From Spirosoma oryzae (GTDB lineage: Bacteria; Bacteroidota; Bacteroidia; Cytophagales; Spirosomataceae): a stretch of 64,000 nucleotides of DNA. This document shows positions 4,150 to 29,075 of this stretch, in pieces. A program made the translations under genes and the position numbers. The notes below the pieces were generated by a model. The model was given only the letters and a program-made list of their open reading frames with translations. It had not been told where the DNA came from and did not search any database. Position 1 is the first letter of the stretch. Every line of letters begins with the position of its first letter. The stretch spans positions 1 to 64,000 of the forward strand of contig NZ_PVTE01000026.1 of NCBI RefSeq assembly GCF_003002825.1, given 5' to 3'.

Positions 4150-6369
4150 TTACTCGTTAGTGATTAATACGTCACTGATGCGCTGTAGCAGGGTTTCCAC
4201 GTCCTGCTGACGAGCCAGCCGATAGCGGGCAAACGATTGACCAGCGCCTACCTTCGCCGTATACACCCAGTTGGGTAAGAGTCGAAACATATCTTCATCG
4301 GTCGTGTCGTCACCAATACTGACAATGAAATCGTAGGGTTTCTGCTCCAGAATCGTCAGCGCGACGGTTCCTTTGCTGTACCGGGCCGCCTTCACTTCCA
4401 CCACTTTGTTGCCTTGAATAACCGACAGGGGGATGGAGAATGAAGTATCCCGCAGTTGATTGGCCAGTTCCATCGCCTGGGCATCACTATCCTTGTCCGC
4501 CACCATCCGGTAATGCCAGGCTAATGCAGTTTCTTTGGCTTCGATGAACGAACCGGTAAAGCGTTCCACGAACGGGGCCATGATCGACCGGACGTTGCCA
4601 ACCCAGTCATCGGCCGACAAGTCGAGCAACTCCCAGGGCTGATCCGGTTTTTTCAGAAAAGCACCATGTTCAGCGACCAGAAAAACGGAGATGCCCGCGA
4701 ACGTTTTCTCCAGGAAGGCCCGGTTGCGGCCGCTGATGACCACCAGATCACTACTTTCGGCCAGGTGGGCCAGGGTCTGTTTAAGCGATTCGGACGGACA
4801 GGCGTCGGCCGGGTCGTCCACAAGCGGAGCGAGGGTGCCGTCGAAATCCAGCAGGAGCAGACGTTGACTGGCACCCTCAAAGGCATTGACGAATGTCGGT
4901 ACCGGCAGGTCGGTTTCCAGCTCAGGTTTATACCGGGATACATCCGCAAACGCCGTCAAAAAATTGTGACTCCATCGAAAGACGGTATTGTTTTGCAGGT
5001 GTTCCCGCATGGCGATCATGCGTTGTTGCTGCTCCGACTCAGGCATTTCCAGTCCCTGCTGTATGGCATCGGCCACTTCCTGCGTATCCGTCGGGTTGAT
5101 AATCAGCGCATCTGTCAACTCCTGCGCGGCTCCGGCAAACTCGCTCAGAATCAGCACGCCCTTGTGATCGTGACGACTGGCTACAAACTCTTTACAGACC
5201 AAATTCATCCCGTCCCGAATGGGCGTAATAAGGGCCACGTCGCAGGCCGTGTACAGGGCCAATAGCTCCGTAAACGACAACGACGAGTACGAATAGATGA
5301 TCGGACGCCAGCCAATCGTACCGAATCGACCATTGATCCGTCCGACGGTTTCTTCGATTTCGCGTTTGAGTTCCTGGTACTGCCCAATCTTATCGCGCGA
5401 CGGAACCACTGTCATGACCAAGGTTACCCGGCCCTGCCAGTCTGGATGGTGGGCCATAAACCACTCGAAGCCCTGAAGCCGGTAGATGATTCCCTTTGTG
5501 TAATCGAGCCGATCGACGGAAAAGATGATCTTGTTTTGCCGGAGCAACTGCTGGTATTGCTGCCGGGTATTGACCACGTCTGCTTCCTGCGCACTGGTGT
5601 TGAATTTAAAAAAGTCGACGCTGATCGGGAAGTCGCCGACCATAACCGATCGGTCGGGTAGCACGATGCGCGGGCCGATAATCGGTAGCTCCAGTACATC
5701 CGAAACGCTTTGTAGAAAATGCTGTACATAATCGGTGGTATGAAATCCGACGACGTCAGCACCCAGGATGCCTTTCAGTAGGGCCTGTCGCCAGGTGCGT
5801 GGCAGCAGCTTTACGATCTCGTACGTAGGAAACGGAATATGAAAGAAGTATCCGATTGTGGCGCTGGGAATCGCCTGCCGGACCATATCGGGCAGTAGCA
5901 TCAGTTGGAAATCGTGAATCCAGACCAGATCGCCGGGTTGAATCAACGCCGTCAATGTCTCCAGAAACCGCGTGTTGGCTTGCTGATAGCTTTGGAAGTC
6001 AGTTTCTTTAAACGATGCATAGGACGGGAAATAATGAAAGAGGGGCCAGATCAGGTCGTTGCTGAATCCGTAGTAAAAGCCATTGTGTACTGCCTCCTCG
6101 ATAAAAACCGGATGGGCTACAAAGGCATCATTTTCCAGCGTAGCCGGATCGGCCGATTGCAATGACGCATCGCCGAAACCAACCCAGTGGATTTTAGCCG
6201 TTGAATCGCCCTGTCGCTGTCCCATCTGCTCCGCCATCGAGAGTACGGCCGAAACGAGTCCGCCGGAATTCTGTCGTAGTTCAGTACCGTCGTCGGTTTG
6301 TTGTACCGTGAACGGTAAGCGATAAGAAACAATGAGTAGTCGATTAAATGAAGAGTCAAATGGTTGCAT
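4150..6369 (-). CDS. Bifunctional trehalose-6-phosphate synthase / phosphatase (OtsA-OtsB fusion)
   Basis: 739 residues. The N-terminal part (about 1-480) is a GT20 glycosyltransferase that makes trehalose-6-phosphate from UDP-glucose and glucose-6-phosphate; visible motifs are NSGGLVSA, WIHDFQLMLLP, SVDRLDYTKGI and ITPIRDGMNLVCKEF. The C-terminal part (about 500-739) is a HAD phosphatase with DFDGTLAPL, VISGRN and GDDTTDEDMF, which removes the phosphate to give trehalose. Single-chain fusions of the two activities are common in Bacteroidota. It is divergent from the TreS-maltokinase gene, and four tandem 11-bp boxes lie 55-92 bp upstream, suggesting co-regulation of trehalose synthesis. Cytoplasmic; all motifs needed for activity appear present. 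Confidence 0.95.
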   Translation of the reverse strand: MQPFDSSFNRLLIVSYRLPFTVQQTDDGTELRQNSGGLVSAVLSMAEQMGQRQGDSTAKIHWVGFGDASLQSADPATLENDAFVAHPVFIEEAVHNGFYYGFSNDLIWPLFHYFPSYASFKETDFQSYQQANTRFLETLTALIQPGDLVWIHDFQLMLLPDMVRQAIPSATIGYFFHIPFPTYEIVKLLPRTWRQALLKGILGADVVGFHTTDYVQHFLQSVSDVLELPIIGPRIVLPDRSVMVGDFPISVDFFKFNTSAQEADVVNTRQQYQQLLRQNKIIFSVDRLDYTKGIIYRLQGFEWFMAHHPDWQGRVTLVMTVVPSRDKIGQYQELKREIEETVGRINGRFGTIGWRPIIYSYSSLSFTELLALYTACDVALITPIRDGMNLVCKEFVASRHDHKGVLILSEFAGAAQELTDALIINPTDTQEVADAIQQGLEMPESEQQQRMIAMREHLQNNTVFRWSHNFLTAFADVSRYKPELETDLPVPTFVNAFEGASQRLLLLDFDGTLAPLVDDPADACPSESLKQTLAHLAESSDLVVISGRNRAFLEKTFAGISVFLVAEHGAFLKKPDQPWELLDLSADDWVGNVRSIMAPFVERFTGSFIEAKETALAWHYRMVADKDSDAQAMELANQLRDTSFSIPLSVIQGNKVVEVKAARYSKGTVALTILEQKPYDFIVSIGDDTTDEDMFRLLPNWVYTAKVGAGQSFARYRLARQQDVETLLQRISDVLITNE

Positions 6370-6634: not shown

Positions 6635-9600
6635 ATGACAAGCAACACAAGTGAACAGCAGGACAAGCTTTATTGGTACAAAGACGCCATTATTTACGAA
6701 CTGCACATAAAAGCATTCTGCGACGGGAACGGCGACGGTATCGGCGACTTTCAGGGTCTGCTCAACAAGCTGGATTACCTCCAGGAACTGGGCATTACGG
6801 CAATCTGGCTACTCCCGTTTTACCCGTCGCCCCTGCGCGACGACGGGTACGACATTGCCGATTACTACGCCATCAACCCGGCATACGGCACCATCGAGCA
6901 GTTTAAAACCCTGATCCACGAAGCCCATCAACGGAATCTGAAAGTCATTACGGAACTGGTAATCAATCACAGCTCCGATCAGCACCCCTGGTTCCAGCGG
7001 GCCCGCCTTGCGCCAAAGGGTTCGCCCGAACGTGATTACTACGTCTGGACTGATGATCCGACGCAGTACAAAGACGTACGGATTATTTTTCAGGATTTTG
7101 AAAGCTCGAACTGGACCTGGGACCATGCAGCGCAGCAGTACTACTGGCACCGCTTTTTTCATCACCAGCCCGACCTTAATTACGACAATCCGCTTGTGCA
7201 GGCGGAGGTGTTCCGGCTTATCGATTACTGGTGCGAACTAGGCGTCGACGGGTTTCGGCTGGATGCCGTACCGTATCTGTTCGAACGGGAGGGAACGAAC
7301 GGGGAGAATCTACCTGAAACGCATGCGTTCCTGAAAAAACTGCGCAGCCACGTCGATACCTACCATCCGGGTGTCGCGTTTCTGGCTGAAGCCAATATGT
7401 GGCCCGAAGATTCGGCCTCGTACTTCGGCGATGGCGACGAATGCCACATGAACTACCATTTCCCGGTGATGCCCCGTTTGTTTATGGCGCTACAGATGGA
7501 AGACCGGTACCCGATCACCGACATCTTCGATCAAACGCCAACTATTCCCGAGAGTTGTCAGTGGGCCATTTTCCTGCGGAACCACGATGAGCTGACACTG
7601 GAAATGGTGACCGACGAAGAGCGGGATTATATGTACAAAACCTACGCCCGCGACCCCCGTGCCCGCATCAACCTCGGCATTCGTCATCGGCTGGCTCCGC
7701 TGCTGGGCAATAACCGGCAGAAAATCGAGCTCATGAATAGTCTGCTTTTTTCGCTGCGCGGTACGCCGGTCATTTATTATGGTGATGAAATCGGGATGGG
7801 CGATAACGTGTATCTGGGCGACCGCGATGGCGTTCGGACACCGATGCAATGGTCGCCGGATCGGAACGCGGGTTTCTCGGCTGCGAATCCGCACAAGCTC
7901 TATCTGCCGACCATTCTCGACCCGGAATACCACTACGAATCGGTTAATGTCGAGAATCAGCGCCGGAATACGTCGTCGCTGTTCTGGTTTATGAAGCGGA
8001 TGATTACGCTTCGGAAGAAATACAAAGCCTTCGGTCGGGGCGACTTGCGGTTTCTGGACATCGACAATCCAAAGGTGCTGGCCTTTACGCGTACCTACGA
8101 GGAGGAGACACTGCTGATTATCATTAACTTATCCAAGTTCGCCCAGCCCGCCGAAATCGAGTTGACCGGGTTTGGGGGCTACGTGCCGATCGAAGTGTTT
8201 AGTCAGAATGCCTTCCCGGCAGTTTTGGCGAACGAGACGTATTTCTTTACCCTGGCCCCGCACGATCATCAGTGGTTTGTGCTGGAAAAAGCCAGTAAAA
8301 CTGCCGTGACTTCGCGTCAGTTACCCATCATCCAGCTAGCGCACTGGGATCAGCTACTGAGCGGTGGGCCCCGGCAGCAGCTTGAAGCCGAGATACTGCC
8401 CGGCTACTTACGCAGCGCCGACTGGTTTCAGGAAAAGAAAGAAGCCATGCAAGGCGTTTCGGTACTGCATCACGCACCACTAGCGATCGCGCCAGCGCAG
8501 GTGCTGTTGCTGGAGGTCGCGTATAGTAAAGGATTGCCCGATATCTTTCAATTGATCGTGGCGTTTGCCGACGAAGCTCAGGCGGGTAAGCTGACACAAA
8601 GTTGCCCGCAAGCCGTATTGGCTACGCTGGAGCTGGGTGCTGAACCGGGCGCGCTGTGCGATGGCTTGTACCTTGCCGACGTTCAGCAGGCGTTGCTGCA
8701 ACAACTAGCCGGTGACGACCGAGGTGGCGATGCTACTCTGGTCGTTCAGAGCGAACCGGACCTGACGGCGTATGTTCAGGAGCACAGTGGTATAAAACCA
8801 AAGCTGACCGCATCCGGCCCTGATTATGCGGCTGTTGCCTACGACCACTGCTATCTGCTGAAGGTGTACAGAAAAATCGATCTGTCTGTTAATCCGGATA
8901 CGGAAATGACGCGGTTCCTGACTGCGCAGGCTGGGTTTGACAGTGTTTCTCCCGTTGCCGGATCGATGGAGATGAAGGCTGAGGGCGGGCCGATTACACT
9001 GGGTGTTATGCAGAAGATGGTGGCTCGACACGGCGATGGTAAACAGTATGTACTGGAGCGGATCAACAACTTCATCGAGCGAATTCTGGCCCGTGATCCG
9101 GCGCAGTTAGCCGCTGCACTAGCAGCACCACTGCGCCCGTTAACCCAGCCTCTTTCATTTCCTGACCTGCCGATCGAGACCCAGGAATTAGTAGGGCATC
9201 GGGCCGCTCAGCAGGCCAATCTTTTGGGCGAACGCATTGGGCAAATGCACCTGGCGCTGGCTTCTAACAGCACGCATAAAGACTTTACCCCGGAAGAGTT
9301 CTCGCTGCATTACCAGCGCTCGCTGTTCGCAGGCTTCCAGTCGCTGGTTCGGGAAAGTTATCAGGCTCAGAAACGAACGCTACCATCACTGCCTGACGAC
9401 GTGCGGTTGGGTGTCGAGCAACTACTAACCCGGAGAAACGACTTATTGACCCTGTTTAAGCGAATCTACAGCAGGAAGCTGGACACAACGAAAATTCGTA
9501 TTCACGGCGATTTACAACTGGAAAAGATTCTGCTGACTGGCAACGACATTGCTATCCAGGACTTTGGGGGTGACACAAACCGAAGCTACAGCGAACGTCG

Positions 9601-9991
9601 GCTGAAGCGGTCGCCCCTGCGCGACGTAGCGTCCATGATCCGATCGTTCTATTACGTAGGCTACGAGGGCTTTCTGTTGACGAACCAGGTGACTACTACC
9701 GGTTTGACTTCACTGCTTCCGTATGCCGAATTCTGGTCGCGGTACATGAGCAACTTCTTTATGGAAGCGTACCTGAAAACGGTTGCGGGAAGTTCATTCA
9801 TCCCTAGTCAGCCCGGCGACCTGCAGATGATGCTGGAAACGTATCTGCTTGAAAGAGCCGTATCGGATCTGAATCACGAGCTGAACAGCCGCCCCGACTG
9901 GGTACGCGTCCCGCTGCAACTGATACAATCAATTCTGAAACAGGCGGAGCTTCGCAATCCGGAATCCGTTCTGGCAACTGACGTAATTTAG
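6635..9991 (+). CDS. treS: Maltose alpha-D-glucosyltransferase (trehalose synthase) fused to maltokinase
   Basis: About 1118 residues from ATG 6635 (an upstream GTG at 6605 is also in frame). The N-terminal 550 residues are a GH13 trehalose synthase that interconverts maltose and trehalose: nucleophile Asp in [22 protein letters not shown] (shortened: GFRLDAVPY), acid Glu in [10 protein letters not shown], third Asp in [11 protein letters not shown]. The C-terminal 450 residues match maltokinase (Mak/Pep2), which makes maltose-1-phosphate with ATP: [18 protein letters not shown] and the typical [11 protein letters not shown]. The kinase motif is somewhat divergent (Gln where HGDxHLxQ has the second His), but the catalytic Asp residues remain. 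In the GlgE pathway, maltose-1-phosphate feeds alpha-glucan synthesis; GlgE is not in this window. Confidence 0.93.
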   Translation: [1118 protein letters not shown]

Positions 9992-25415: not shown

Positions 25416-26111
25416 ATGAACTTGTCCATCAAAAATCAGGAGTCTGCTAAAAACTTTGCGATTCGCCGTCGAGACTTCTCCATACTGGTTGCGCAGTCGG
25501 AACTGTTCAATTGTGAGGTCCTGAGTCAGCTGCTGAAAGAGCAGGGGTACAATGTAGTGGGTAGGGCCGTCGAAATGGAAGATACGCTTCAGCAGATTCG
25601 GGTCAAGCGACCACACTGCGTGATACTTGAATCGGAAATATCCGGGCGGCAAAGTTTCGACATCGTAGAAGAACTACGAACGACCAACTACCAGACCAAA
25701 TTTATTCTGTATACAAGCAAACCTGATGCCCGAATGGTGGCAAAGGCAATGCAAATCGGCTTTTTTGGCTTTCTGTATGCCAACGACAGTCTGGACGAGC
25801 TGTACCGCTGTTTTCACACCGTGAGCAGTGGCGGTTGTTACTACAGTAACGGGTTTATGTCTTTACTGAAGGATTACGGGGTAGATATAATCTCCGATGA
25901 GACACGAACCGCGCTAAACCGCCTGACCAATCGTGAACGGGAAGTGCTCCGTATGGTTGCCGATGGGGGGACAACAGACGAAATAGCGGATAATCTGGGG
26001 ATTAGCTATCGTACAGCGATCAATCATAAGGCGCACATCGCTAAAAAACTTGACTTGGAAGGCTGTCGTCAACTGCCCAAATACGGTATTTCTGTCCGGA
26101 AATACCTGTGA
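25416..26111 (+). CDS. LuxR/NarL-type regulator with a degenerate (pseudo-)receiver domain
   Basis: 231 residues: an N-terminal receiver-like domain and a C-terminal LuxR helix-turn-helix (LTNREREVLRMVADGGTTDE, IADNLGISYRTAINHKAHI). The receiver has lost its active site: the usual Asp pair after the first strand reads VAQSE, the phosphoacceptor Asp position is Glu72 (CVILESEISG), and the conserved Lys position is Ala122 (GFLYANDS). Phosphorylation is therefore unlikely, and Glu72 may mimic the active state. It ends three bases before the LytTR gene, with which it is convergent. No kinase partner is adjacent. It probably responds to ligand, protein partner or amount rather than phosphate. Confidence 0.88.
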   Translation: MNLSIKNQESAKNFAIRRRDFSILVAQSELFNCEVLSQLLKEQGYNVVGRAVEMEDTLQQIRVKRPHCVILESEISGRQSFDIVEELRTTNYQTKFILYTSKPDARMVAKAMQIGFFGFLYANDSLDELYRCFHTVSSGGCYYSNGFMSLLKDYGVDIISDETRTALNRLTNREREVLRMVADGGTTDEIADNLGISYRTAINHKAHIAKKLDLEGCRQLPKYGISVRKYL

Positions 26112-26114
26112 GTG

Positions 26115-27131
26115 TCAAGACGAGAATACCTCGAAGGAGTTAGCGTCGGAGTTCGAGCGGGGCGGAATGTTACCTTGTAACCATTCCTTGAATTCGTGCA
26201 TCCGGGCCCGGGGAACAATAACCTCGTGATTGCCGGGCGTGTTGAGTCGAACTATATATTTGCCGTTTTCCCAGTAAGCATAGTTAAGTACAGCCTCTCG
26301 GTTGACTATATAATCGCGCTTTATACGAAAGAAAACGCTGGGGTCGAGTTCCTGATCAAGTTCGTTGAGGGTTTTCGTGATCAGATACCGGCCACGGGGG
26401 TGCTCAGCGTAGTATTGGCGTTCTTCCACCGTGAAGAAATAAGCTTCTGTCGACAGGAAGGTGATTTCACCATTAGCGTCTTTTCCGCGCAGGTACAATG
26501 GATTGTCTGATTGAACGGCTTCCTGCACGGGCGGATTACTCAGTTGGTCTATCACCTGTGCCATCATTGCTGACTCTGACTCGGCAGCCTGTTGCGCCTT
26601 CTGCCGCTCGCGCAGGTAATCTGATATAAGCGATATGTTGACAGATGCATAGGCGATGAGCAAGATTGGAATGAGGTACCGCAGGTACATTTCCCCCGTA
26701 AAGGTGCCGATGAGGAACGAGTTGAGGTAGTTCTGAAACGAGTAATCCGGGAATTTCTGAAAAACGAACCGGACGGTTTCCGTAATCGGATTGAATATGA
26801 AGAAGGCTAGTAATACAGTTGGAAGCAGCTTAAGCTGATAGCGAAGGATCACCTCAGGCTTCAATTCGAGTGAAGTAAGCCCGAACTGCTTATGCTGTTG
26901 ATTAAGCAGGCTAAGCAGCACAAGCACGGTGACTACTTCCGGTAAGACGATGCTCCGAACGAATAACCACATGTAAGGCAAAAAGCCCCCGTACTGTGTA
27001 AGTCTGGCAAGCTTGGAACTGTATATATAAGACCAGGAAACGCCTTCCATTGCCAGTACGATAACCAGCAGGACGCCGATACTATAGATCGGGTTCCGTA
27101 AATATTTTCTGGTTAGCTGTATCGTCGTCAT
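26115..27131 (-). CDS. Membrane-anchored LytTR-type transcriptional regulator
   Basis: 338 residues. The first about 180 residues contain four hydrophobic helices (for example IGVLLVIVLAMEGVSWSYIY and IVLPEVVTVLVLLSLL), then a short coiled-coil linker (RERQKAQQAAESESAMMAQV) and a LytTR DNA-binding domain (about 210-325) with the typical FFRIKRDYIVNREAV. There is no receiver or kinase domain, so signal sensing would be through the membrane part. It is divergent from the three-peptide operon with 176 bases between start codons, a layout that suggests it controls that operon and perhaps senses its product. The LytTR family usually controls peptide, bacteriocin or virulence genes. Confidence 0.88.
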   Translation of the reverse strand: MTTIQLTRKYLRNPIYSIGVLLVIVLAMEGVSWSYIYSSKLARLTQYGGFLPYMWLFVRSIVLPEVVTVLVLLSLLNQQHKQFGLTSLELKPEVILRYQLKLLPTVLLAFFIFNPITETVRFVFQKFPDYSFQNYLNSFLIGTFTGEMYLRYLIPILLIAYASVNISLISDYLRERQKAQQAAESESAMMAQVIDQLSNPPVQEAVQSDNPLYLRGKDANGEITFLSTEAYFFTVEERQYYAEHPRGRYLITKTLNELDQELDPSVFFRIKRDYIVNREAVLNYAYWENGKYIVRLNTPGNHEVIVPRARMHEFKEWLQGNIPPRSNSDANSFEVFSS

Positions 27132-27211
27132 ACTGCCCTTATCAAAAATCTAAACTAAGATACTAGTAAATATTGACTAATACCTAACGTATTAATGAGA
27201 CTTTTCTGCGA

Positions 27212-27242
27212 TTGAGCGCCCTGTGGGGGTGGGGTACCTTTG
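27212..27242 (+). promoter_or_regulatory. Promoter of the three-peptide operon
   Basis: TTG (27212-27214), 20 bases, TACCTTTG (27235-27242): an excellent match to the Bacteroidota promoter pattern. The implied transcript starts about 27249, leaving a leader of roughly 60 bases before the first peptide. Just upstream, 27183-27191 read on the minus strand gives TACGTTAGG, which fits a single LytTR half-site; no well-placed second half-site was found. Confidence 0.65.
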
Positions 27243-27307
27243 TATTGTCAATGAGACAAAAAAAGACAACGCAAGTAACCTCATCACTTTTATATCAGTC
27301 AATCGCC

Positions 27308-27469
27308 ATGAAAAAGCAATTTTCGATCAAGGCCATCAATGTCGCCAAAGGTAATGTTCTGTCGGCTGCTAAAGCTGAATCAGCTAACCTGCTGAAGTTT
27401 CTCAAACCCGCCGATTGCTGCCCCACTGCTGACTTTACTGCCTTGACCAAGCCAGTTTTGTCGCTCTAA
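27308..27469 (+). CDS. Short peptide 1 of a tandem three-peptide family (53 residues)
   Basis: Starts MKKQFSIKAINVAKGN and ends LTKPVLSL. It shares with the next two genes a Lys-rich N-terminus (M-K/N-K-Q/N-F-x-I-K-x-I-N), an alanine/serine hinge (SAAK.ES) and the invariant LLKFLKPADCCPTADFTAL with a Cys pair at residues 37-38. The frame is open further upstream (27212), but that would start inside the promoter, and alignment with peptides 2 and 3 fixes ATG 27308. There is no signal peptide and no Gly-Gly leader. The composition (basic leader-like half, Cys/Thr/Ser-bearing conserved half) suggests a precursor of a ribosomally made modified peptide; this is inference. No known family is recognised. 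Confidence 0.85.
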   Translation: MKKQFSIKAINVAKGNVLSAAKAESANLLKFLKPADCCPTADFTALTKPVLSL

Positions 27470-27515
27470 TCAGTCCGCATTAATCATTCCAACTGACATA
27501 TCTATTCGATCTATC

Positions 27516-27674
27516 ATGAACAAGCAATTCGCCATCAAGAGCATAAACACCAAAAAAAGTCTAGTATCTGCTGCCAAAGCTGAATCAGCTAACCTGCTGA
27601 AGTTTCTCAAGCCAGCCGATTGCTGCCCCACTGCTGACTTTACCGCACTGGTTAAACCTGTAGTCTCTCTCTAA
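27516..27674 (+). CDS. Short peptide 2 of the tandem family (52 residues)
   Basis: Starts MNKQFAIKSINTKKSLVSAA and ends LVKPVVSL. Its central region is identical to peptide 1 over 24 residues, including the Cys pair at 36-37, and the DNA of that region is also nearly identical, which implies recent duplication. The N- and C-terminal ends vary, with substitutions that keep charge and hydrophobicity, so the ORFs are under protein-level selection. The gap to peptide 1 is 46 bases and to peptide 3 is 39, and no promoter or terminator is seen in either, so one transcript is likely. Confidence 0.88.
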   Translation: MNKQFAIKSINTKKSLVSAAKAESANLLKFLKPADCCPTADFTALVKPVVSL

Positions 27675-27713
27675 GTAACTCAGTCTATCAATCTCTGATA
27701 CAGTACCAACGAC

Positions 27714-27875
27714 ATGAAAAAGAACTTTGCCATCAAAACGATCAACACCGTAAAGAACGGTATCAGCTCGGCCGCCAAAAACGAATCAGCCAGCCTGCTC
27801 AAGTTTCTCAAGCCCGCTGATTGCTGCCCCACCGCAGACTTTACCGCGCTGAATAAGGCTAGTATCTCTTTGTAA
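27714..27875 (+). CDS. Short peptide 3 of the tandem family (53 residues)
   Basis: Starts MKKNFAIKTINTVKNGISSA and ends LNKASISL. It is the most diverged copy (NESAS in place of AESAN, different C-terminal end) but keeps LLKFLKPADCCPTADFTAL unchanged. The identity of this 19-residue block in all three, against free variation on both sides, points to a function that depends on the block, such as recognition or modification around the Cys pair. The stop is 26 bases before the acyltransferase-like gene, with no terminator between, so the peptides and that enzyme are probably one operon. Confidence 0.88.
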   Translation: MKKNFAIKTINTVKNGISSAAKNESASLLKFLKPADCCPTADFTALNKASISL

Positions 27876-27901
27876 TAAATCCCATTCAACTACGTACGGT
27901 T

Positions 27902-29014
27902 ATGGCAGCTGCTCTGACGCTATATAAGGAAGAACTTGCTCGGTGCAAAGCGCATTTCGACCAGATCGACTTGCGTCAGGAGCGAGGGTACCTGATGAAG
28001 TTCACCACCTTTTCGGCCAACGTGGAAAATATAATGCCGTTTATCCCACGTAGCGAGCACGAAGGGCTGTTTCGGCAGATTCTGCTGCAACAACTGTTTA
28101 CCACCTTCGATCTGACTTGCCTGTCGGCGGGTGATCTAGTAGATAGAAAAGGGGACGAACTGACATCGATCGGAGCAGGGCCACGCATTTATTGTACGTA
28201 TCACCTCGGCTCCTACCGGCTACTGACCAGCGTGCTGCTGCGGCACGGTGTAGACTGTGTCGTGCTGATGGGGAATAACGCAAACCGGTCGCAGGGCGAT
28301 GGTATCTGTGACCACGTAGAGTCGTTGCGCAAAGAGAGAGGTATGGCCAGCGGTTTCCGAATCGTAGAAACGGGTCACCCTTCAGCAGCACTTACCGTAT
28401 TGCGCGAGTTGAAAGCTGGTAAGTCGATTATCGTGTATGTCGACGGAAGCCCGGAAACGGCACCGGAACCGGGCGACGAAAGCCAGTTTCTGACCGTCAA
28501 TATGGGCGAGCGTCAGGTAATGACCCGGAAAGGCGTCGCTTACCTGTCACACGCATCAGGTGTACCGATCATACCTGTAGTTAGTTACCGGGATGAGAAC
28601 ATGACGAATGTTCTACAAAGTCTGGACCCAATCTATCCTGTGAAGCATAGCGACCGCGAGCAGTACTGCCAGACAGCTATGCAGCAACTCTACGACGCTT
28701 TCTGGCTGTATTTGAGTCGTTATCCGGGACAATGGGAGGGCTGGAACTATATTCATTCGTTCCTGAAACCGATCAATGCCGCTAATCGCACGGCGAGACC
28801 GGTCATTATGCACCCCGTATTCAACGCTGAGCGTTACTCGCTTTGCGAGCTTGAGCAAGCGCCGATCCTGTTTGATCGTCGTTCGTATCAGACATACGAG
28901 ATTACGGATGATCTGCGAGATTTGTTACTCAATATCGACACCGTGGAATCGGTAAAGGGACTTATCGGCGACGAGATGTACGATGAGCTGGTCGATATGG
29001 AGATTTTGTGTTAA
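27902..29014 (+). CDS. LpxL/HtrB-like acyltransferase-fold protein linked to the peptide genes
   Basis: 370 residues, no signal peptide or N-terminal membrane helix (true LpxL has one). Residues about 93-275 follow the LpxL/HtrB fold: PRIYCTYHLGSYRLL, a variable helix, LKAGKSIIVYVDGSPE, MTRKGVAYLSHASGVPIIPV. The usual H-x4-D/E catalytic motif reads H101-LGSY-R106, so the acidic residue is replaced by Arg. The C-terminal 50 residues (ILFDRRSYQTYEITDDLRDL ... LVDMEILC) look like a short beta-hairpin plus helices, faintly like PqqD-type peptide-recognition domains (weak). It is the last gene of the peptide operon and ends at a strong terminator. It may modify or bind the peptides; a lipid A role seems unlikely given the context. 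Confidence 0.8.
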   Translation: MAAALTLYKEELARCKAHFDQIDLRQERGYLMKFTTFSANVENIMPFIPRSEHEGLFRQILLQQLFTTFDLTCLSAGDLVDRKGDELTSIGAGPRIYCTYHLGSYRLLTSVLLRHGVDCVVLMGNNANRSQGDGICDHVESLRKERGMASGFRIVETGHPSAALTVLRELKAGKSIIVYVDGSPETAPEPGDESQFLTVNMGERQVMTRKGVAYLSHASGVPIIPVVSYRDENMTNVLQSLDPIYPVKHSDREQYCQTAMQQLYDAFWLYLSRYPGQWEGWNYIHSFLKPINAANRTARPVIMHPVFNAERYSLCELEQAPILFDRRSYQTYEITDDLRDLLLNIDTVESVKGLIGDEMYDELVDMEILC

Positions 29015-29041: not shown

Positions 29042-29075
29042 AAAAAAGGGACCTTCAGTTGAGGGTCCCTTTTTT
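29042..29075. terminator. Bidirectional terminator between the peptide operon and rng
   Basis: Perfect 12-bp stem AAAAAAGGGACC / GGTCCCTTTTTT (29042-29053, 29064-29075) with a 10-base loop. The A and T runs make it work on either strand; it serves the convergent genes at 27902-29014 and 29107-30669. Confidence 0.88.

Follow-up and report, generated by a model that had tools for sequence, protein, structure and literature searches.

The window analysed here comprises positions 1-64,000 of the forward strand of contig NZ_PVTE01000026.1 of Spirosoma oryzae (GCF_003002825.1). It holds four plus-strand genes in tandem, three for short peptides (pep1, pep2, pep3) and one for an enzyme, with gaps of 46, 39 and 26 bases to the respective next gene (Table 1). 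The enzyme combines the fold of lysophospholipid acyltransferases (LPLAT) with a C-terminal domain of the type of the recognition elements (RRE) that bind the leaders of ribosomally synthesized and post-translationally modified peptides (RiPPs). The four genes form a real, conserved and small RiPP-like system, the maturase architecture of which was not found described. We favour, with moderate confidence, a minimal RiPP pathway in which the RRE-LPLAT protein would recognise the leader of each peptide and attach an acyl group to its core. An earlier note on this DNA, made from the sequence alone, had listed three small tandem open reading frames (ORFs) with the above gaps, a TTG-N20 promoter, a terminator at the end of the operon and a divergent gene for a membrane-anchored LytTR regulator. 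These elements were confirmed at the positions given in the table.

Table 1. Features of the peptide-enzyme locus in the window (dN and dS, rates of non-synonymous and synonymous substitution)
Feature	Position	Strand	Basis or details
LuxR-type response regulator (Response_reg + GerE)	25416..26111	+	PF00072 3.7e-13, PF00196 1.4e-14
Membrane-anchored LytTR-domain regulator, divergent	26115..27131	-	PF04397 1.4e-18; four hydrophobic segments
Operator-like site ACTAANATANNNGTAANNATTNACTA	27154..27179	+	two ACTA(A) boxes, starts separated by 22 bp
Bacteroidota-type promoter TTG-N20-TACCTTTG	27212..27242	+	TTG 27212-27214, TACCTTTG 27235-27242
Predicted precursor peptide 1 (pep1)	27308..27469	+	53 aa; ORF, peptide alignment, dN/dS
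Predicted precursor peptide 2 (pep2)	27516..27674	+	52 aa; ORF, peptide alignment, dN/dS
Predicted precursor peptide 3 (pep3)	27714..27875	+	53 aa; ORF, peptide alignment, dN/dS
Predicted LPLAT-fold maturase with C-terminal RRE-type domain	27902..29014	+	370 aa; H101, R106 at the place of the catalytic acid, D181
C-terminal part of the maturase gene	28799..29014	+	structure models, structure comparison, profile alignment
Intrinsic terminator hairpin with T run	29042..29075	+	-22.1 kcal/mol, z -3.97

The three peptides share an identical FLKPADCCPTADFTAL block. Comparison with the closest relative (locus L001) gave dN values of 0.04, 0.06 and 0.05 and dS values of 1.12, 0.82 and 0.57 for pep1, pep2 and pep3, respectively. 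Since dN is far lower than dS, the peptides are real genes that have been selected as proteins (purifying selection). Loci of the close form, to which the window belongs, carry one to three peptide genes. An alignment of 48 distinct close-form peptides showed M1, F5, K22, E24 and C38 to be invariant; the common elements are MKKxFxIK, (A)KxE and a Cys. Position 37 is occupied by Cys in 39 and by Ser in 9 of the 48. The N-terminal half is conserved, and the residues C-terminal of the Cys vary in sequence and length, which is the RiPP feature of a conserved leader half and a variable core end. Cys38 is the sole C-terminal nucleophile at an invariant column. A Ser follows the plain AKxE motif in all 44 peptides having this motif and a Lys in 43, without a conserved column. 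Searches of Pfam and NCBIfam at E 1 assigned the window peptides to no family. They are basic (net charge +5). A lipoprotein route was rejected, as they contain no hydrophobic or signal-peptide-like segment (hydropathy <=0.9) and lack a lipoprotein signal with lipobox. A double-glycine leader was likewise rejected, as the alignment of the 48 peptides contains no conserved Gly-Gly column before the core.

The enzyme was modelled with AlphaFold2 using 15 homologues (predicted local distance difference test score, pLDDT, 81.3; predicted template modelling score 0.81). Residues 32-291 aligned with PatA (5f2z; Z 20.9, 2.8 A over 232 residues), and the enzyme aligned with LpxM (5kn7; Z 20.1 over 244 residues); Foldseek matched the LPLAT fold at E 7.1e-11. 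No hydrophobic anchor was present. Identity as a GCN5-related N-acetyltransferase (GNAT) was rejected on the basis of the fold. Sequence profiles of the enzyme retrieved neither an LPLAT nor an RRE match from the PDB, and fold comparison alone revealed both. The window enzyme reached 13.4 of 23 bits with PF01553, below the gathering score; PF03279 matched 6 of 15 close-form members (best E 2.6e-8), and the homologues L067, L101 and L104 passed its cut-off. Profile comparison with the Lip_A_acyltrans proteins of relatives placed H101 at the catalytic His and R106 at the Glu position, with an hhalign probability of 94 for an 18-member profile and of only 2.8 for a 15-member profile. The canonical profile was built from those 5 of 16 proteins found that passed a motif filter. 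All 18 aligned members share H101 and D181. The residue at the position of the acid in HX4(D/E) is Arg in ten members, Gln in three, Ser in two, and Gly, Asn and Pro in one each. Cys98 was considered as an acyl-thioester relay and dropped as a family rule (Thr in L066, Val in L103).

Residues ~303-370 fold into three strands and three helices both in the full model and when predicted alone (pLDDT 85.5). Compared with PDB chains, the isolated domain matched best the lasso peptide protein B1 (6jx3; Z 6.6, root mean square deviation 2.5 A over 67 residues), followed by TbiB1 (5v1u, Z 6.3; 5v1v with leader peptide, Z 6.2). The BmdB/BmdC oxidase complex, ThcOx, PqqD, McbBCD, PbtF, a sactipeptide enzyme and SuiB appeared further down. 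Fourteen of the first 17 matches were RiPP proteins (8 different ones), two were the BmdB/BmdC complex and one was the ribosomal oxygenase NO66; a YcfD-like hydroxylase (Z 3.1) and then unrelated proteins from Z 2.4 followed. With the full model as query, TbiB1 also aligned to residues 303-370 (Z 5.4). In these models the C-terminal domain has the architecture of an RRE, nearest to the lasso-peptide RREs by structure and not by sequence.

In the close form, enzyme and peptides occur strictly together. In a family sample of 150 genomes the enzyme profile matched 49 and the peptide profile 46. The count excludes G005, G052, G077 and G080, in which only distant homologues of the enzyme occur, and a spurious peptide match in G077 (E 0.005; it lay within a frame of 679 residues and away from an enzyme). 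The close-form enzyme and the peptide were thus found in the same 45 genomes, neither alone in this sample; in every one of them, 16-73 bases separate the enzyme match from the nearest peptide. A scan of genome contigs yielded 25 loci from Spirosoma, Fibrisoma, Larkinella, Runella, Rhabdobacter and one metagenome-assembled genome (all Spirosomataceae-type); in each, one to three peptide genes immediately precede the enzyme. After removal of L027, a truncated duplicate of the window locus, 46 of 47 distinct close-form enzyme sequences were retained; all 46 adjoin peptides, a count that is partly circular, as the peptide hidden Markov model (HMM) was seeded from the same loci. The first peptide HMM was seeded with 12 peptides and the later profile with 19, all from these loci, so that divergent precursors without an enzyme could escape; the later profile nonetheless serves as a test for solitary occurrence of peptides of the known kind. 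Among 108 strong peptide matches, 14 initially lay outside the range of an enzyme: in 8 the enzyme frame opened upstream of the start codon, 3 were on L027, and in 3 (L068-L070) the enzyme had been missed by the motif. The enzyme HMM placed peptides beside an enzyme in all these loci. A short precursor gene beside its modifying enzyme, the two conserved together, is a RiPP feature. At the order level the enzyme profile matched 32 of 341 genomes (E 1e-10), and in a phylum sample 4 of 395, three of which belong to the same family. The system is therefore narrow: the close form is confined to one family, and the scattered relatives fall mostly into the same order.

Seventeen loci with distant homologues of the enzyme were examined by reading, with HMM matches where these are named. 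RiPP-type genes or precursor-like peptides occur in 12 of them. LanB adjoins the homologue in L059, L060, L064 and L100, and an M50-type protein in L061, L062, L063, L066, L101 and L102, over the Pfam cut-off in L062 only; that of L063 was nearest the model of a daptide intramembrane protease (100 of 300 bits). An ATP-grasp protein in L066 reached 221 of 230 bits with TIGR04192. L102 encodes an ATP-grasp protein recognised by reading only and a SPASM partner (TIGR04193, 128 of 175 bits); Pfam named neither of the two ATP-grasp proteins. L063 contains an arginase (PF00491). L103 contains a FlmA-family precursor over cut-off (NF052472), a peptide arginase (PF12640), a radical SAM protein and JmjC_2, and L067 only a Cys-rich TIVELEDRLE-type peptide. 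Genes for fatty acid synthesis (FAS) of the kinds ketosynthase, FabG, FabZ, acyl carrier protein (ACP), AMP ligase and phosphopantetheinyl transferase, not all in every locus, were recognised by reading and not by HMM in L059-L062, L064, L065 and L100. Most precursor-like ORFs of the distant loci have a Cys downstream of a leader-like ERLE motif. Tree building grouped the close form as a single clade (91/92), placed amid members with RiPP company on a weak backbone. When the RRE tail of the close form was aligned with tails of the homologues, hhalign gave 97.3 % for the FAS group, 98.6 % for the RiPP group and 48.7 % for L104/L105.

L059, L060, L064 and L100 (also L061 and L062) unite a FAS/flexirubin-style operon, LanB or an M50-type protein and the RRE-LPLAT homologue, mostly with precursor-like peptides, and are putative sources of polyketide- or fatty-acyl-RiPP hybrids. 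L063 has four tandem genes for peptides of 47-50 aa with RC-containing ends (9097-9850) beside the M50-type protein, arginase and homologue. L103 (8268-13732) is a cluster of the DD(I/V)LF (FlmA-family) RiPPs, in which the peptide arginase gene lies three bases from the RRE-LPLAT homologue; a JmjC gene is present, and the radical SAM gene is further off (4827-6287). The LPLAT-like proteins of L104-L107 have 433-469 aa, a weakly RRE-like tail and an adjoining gene of ~800 aa.

The transcription signals of the window recur in part at other loci. Of 26 loci checked, 24 (all but L006 and L007) carry a TAnnTTTG element <=250 bp before the first peptide gene. Eight of the 26 have the full TTG-N18-22 form, for which the background is 0.018 matches per 250 bp. 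Only 1 of 200 shuffled sequences folded as well as the terminator hairpin. A LytTR homologue lies beside 46/46 distinct close-form loci, and the LuxR-type regulator adjoins 27/27 of those with >3 kb of upstream sequence; the latter is a conserved neighbour with a possible link to the system. LytTR sites consist of two 9-bp direct repeats with a 12-13 bp spacer. The element ACTAAGATACTAGTAAATATTGACTA (27154-27179), upstream of the promoter, resembles such sites in the 22-bp distance between the starts of its two boxes and is a probable, predicted target of the LytTR regulator. Its pattern, drawn by eye, occurred once in the 64-kb window versus never in 100 shuffles, and once in the whole 6.57-Mb genome; the regulator may therefore have one main target, the peptide operon. 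The exact form was present in 23 of 138 loci, several of which are copies of one place. At ten loci read elsewhere, none of the LytTR homologues had a peptide gene of this kind next to it; the LytTR family overall is therefore not peptide-specific.

In the proposed pathway, pep1-3 would be precursors with the N-terminal half (MKKxFxIK ... AKxE) as leader and the Cys-containing C-terminal end as core. The RRE-type domain would grip the leader, probably via the FxI stretch, and present the core to the LPLAT-fold domain, which would use acyl-ACP or acyl-CoA as donor and attach the fatty acyl group to a side chain, most likely that of Cys38, with Lys22 or Ser/Thr as alternatives. The membrane-bound LytTR protein would control the operon through positions 27154-27179, and its membrane location may allow it to sense the product there. 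We regard the RiPP nature of the system as quite probable, leader binding as a well-supported prediction and acylation by the LPLAT-fold enzyme as probable. The proposal retains from the earlier note the precursor nature of the peptides, supported by their conserved N-terminal half and variable end; the pairing with the acyltransferase-like gene, which the note would have seen refuted by peptides occurring mostly without that gene, whereas the pair was present in 45/45 of those genomes in the sample of 150 that hold either close form; and the LpxL/HtrB-like fold without membrane anchor, borne out by the PatA and LpxM matches. The note had also described the centre of the peptides, including a Cys pair, as conserved exactly; this is true of pep1-3, but across species only the second Cys is invariant (48/48), and the pair is no invariant unit. 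The leader-binding type of domain in the enzyme had been overlooked.

Several observations weigh against the proposed pathway. No protease, exporter or acyl-donor gene was recognised by reading among the ORFs around the locus; as to exporters, the genome has three C39-peptidase matches, all on other contigs. The domain alone gave Z values <8, which may reflect a common arrangement only, and Foldseek E >=0.25; the RRE case thus rests on the make-up of the match list, the order of secondary structure elements and the genomic company. By sequence, the domain matched no PDB chain and none of the PqqD/RRE Pfam models, for which the HMMER filters drop most weak matches; sequence-divergent RREs have been reported (PMC12710340), a sequence match not being defining. 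The acid of HX4(D/E) is absent in 18/18 members, so that the LPLAT catalytic signature is lacking and acyl transfer is something that we infer. Its loss would fit if the acyl group went to a stronger nucleophile than the hydroxyl of a sugar, e.g. to a thiol. Reading of L065 and L104-L107 (four genomes of one genus) revealed neither a precursor nor a RiPP enzyme in the vicinity. Finally, neither of the precursor-like ORFs L061:6117-6389 and L066:8069-8242 contains a Cys after the leader-like motif, and Cys can therefore not be the acceptor family-wide. Because of these two ORFs, and because Ser and Lys also follow AKxE in the close form, our estimate for Cys as acylation site was lowered slightly and is tentative; as the sole nucleophile at an invariant C-terminal column, Cys38 is still the first-choice site in the close form.

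The missing acid is equally the argument for a different use of the fold, in which the LPLAT-type domain is no longer an acyltransferase and carries out another reaction on the leader-bound peptide, such as hydrolysis or another transfer, or serves as chaperone of the Cys core. The invariance of H101 and D181 in 18/18 members speaks against a dead fold, however, and acyl transfer would be a natural job for the several homologues that by reading lie inside FAS-type operons; we hold this explanation to be unlikely. The peptides might also be unmodified, secreted or membrane-active and bacteriocin-like, with the acyltransferase-like protein altering membrane lipids as immunity. LytTR regulators often control bacteriocins, and both the LytTR neighbour and the charge of +5 would suit such a function, but the enzyme bears an RRE-type domain, its homologues travel with RiPP maturases, and pep1-3 have neither a signal-peptide-like segment nor a conserved Gly-Gly. 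This makes a bacteriocin-like role clearly improbable.

Similarly low is the probability that the peptides are intracellular partners or inhibitors of a lipid enzyme, which would bind them as regulatory cofactor. Strict co-occurrence and the lack of a recognised exporter agree with a cofactor, whereas up to three tandem copies with variable C terminus suit precursors better than a fixed subunit. A signalling role of the product, for which the evidence consists of the LytTR neighbour and the genome-unique operator-like site, is doubtful. The most far-reaching version is possible and on the whole unlikely: a new lipidated RiPP class in which the invariant Cys is S-acylated, or acylated in another manner, by a fusion of an acid-less LPLAT with an RRE. 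The lipopeptide would insert into the membrane and be recognised there by the LytTR regulator, which acts on a single genomic site, the whole being a complete signalling circuit of five genes; the same enzyme family would deliver polyketide or fatty-acyl chains to lanthipeptide- and graspetide-like precursors elsewhere in the Cytophagales.

If the pathway is correct, ribosomal lipopeptides would be made by a new enzymatic route, through an LPLAT that acts on peptides and carries a leader-binding domain of its own. Such an enzyme would place an LPLAT subfamily within RiPP biosynthesis, in a peptide and enzyme system small enough for direct testing. Among the papers found, the routes of RiPP lipidation are GNATs (PMC13060382), prenyltransferases (PMC12715784 and PMC12076493) and the lipoprotein pathway (PMC12636315). 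An LPLAT-type RiPP maturase was not found in the literature among the matches listed; subscription literature was mostly outside this scope, and this is no proof of absence. The word 'acyltransferase' is absent from the main texts of PMC12703449 on the DD(I/V)LF RiPPs and of PMC12710340 and PMC7470986 on RREs.

The selidamides and nostolysamides resemble the system in having a ribosomal precursor with leader and an adjoining acyltransferase gene (PMC13060382). In the selidamides an arginase makes ornithine for GNAT acylation (PMC12703449 and PMC13060382), and an arginase gene adjoins two of the distant homologues, L063 and L103. However, the selidamides use a GNAT, whereas the window has an LPLAT with RRE-type domain and, by reading, no recognised lanthionine synthetase at the locus. 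The diacylglycerol-modified (DAG-)RiPPs of the chryseobasin type are likewise lipidated Bacteroidota RiPPs with a key Cys, and have a signal peptidase II (SPII) lipoprotein signal and a multinuclear non-heme iron-dependent oxidative enzyme (MNIO) (PMC12636315); the window peptides, in contrast, are without a signal-peptide-like segment. The DD(I/V)LF (FlmA/OhkA) RiPPs with peptide arginase are linked to the system by L103, where an RRE-LPLAT homologue stands beside the arginase, but their precursor is unrelated to the window peptides. The flexirubin cluster is reported to hold a phospholipid/glycerol acyltransferase (PMC3992019), and several distant homologues sit in FAS-type operons of that style; most such operons add LanB, M50 or precursor genes (not L065), and the window locus is without recognised FAS genes. 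LpxL, LpxM and PatA share with the enzyme the fold (Z ~20) and a His aligned with the catalytic His, but in the enzyme the HX4(D/E) acid is missing, an RRE-type tail is added and the substrate is presumably a peptide.

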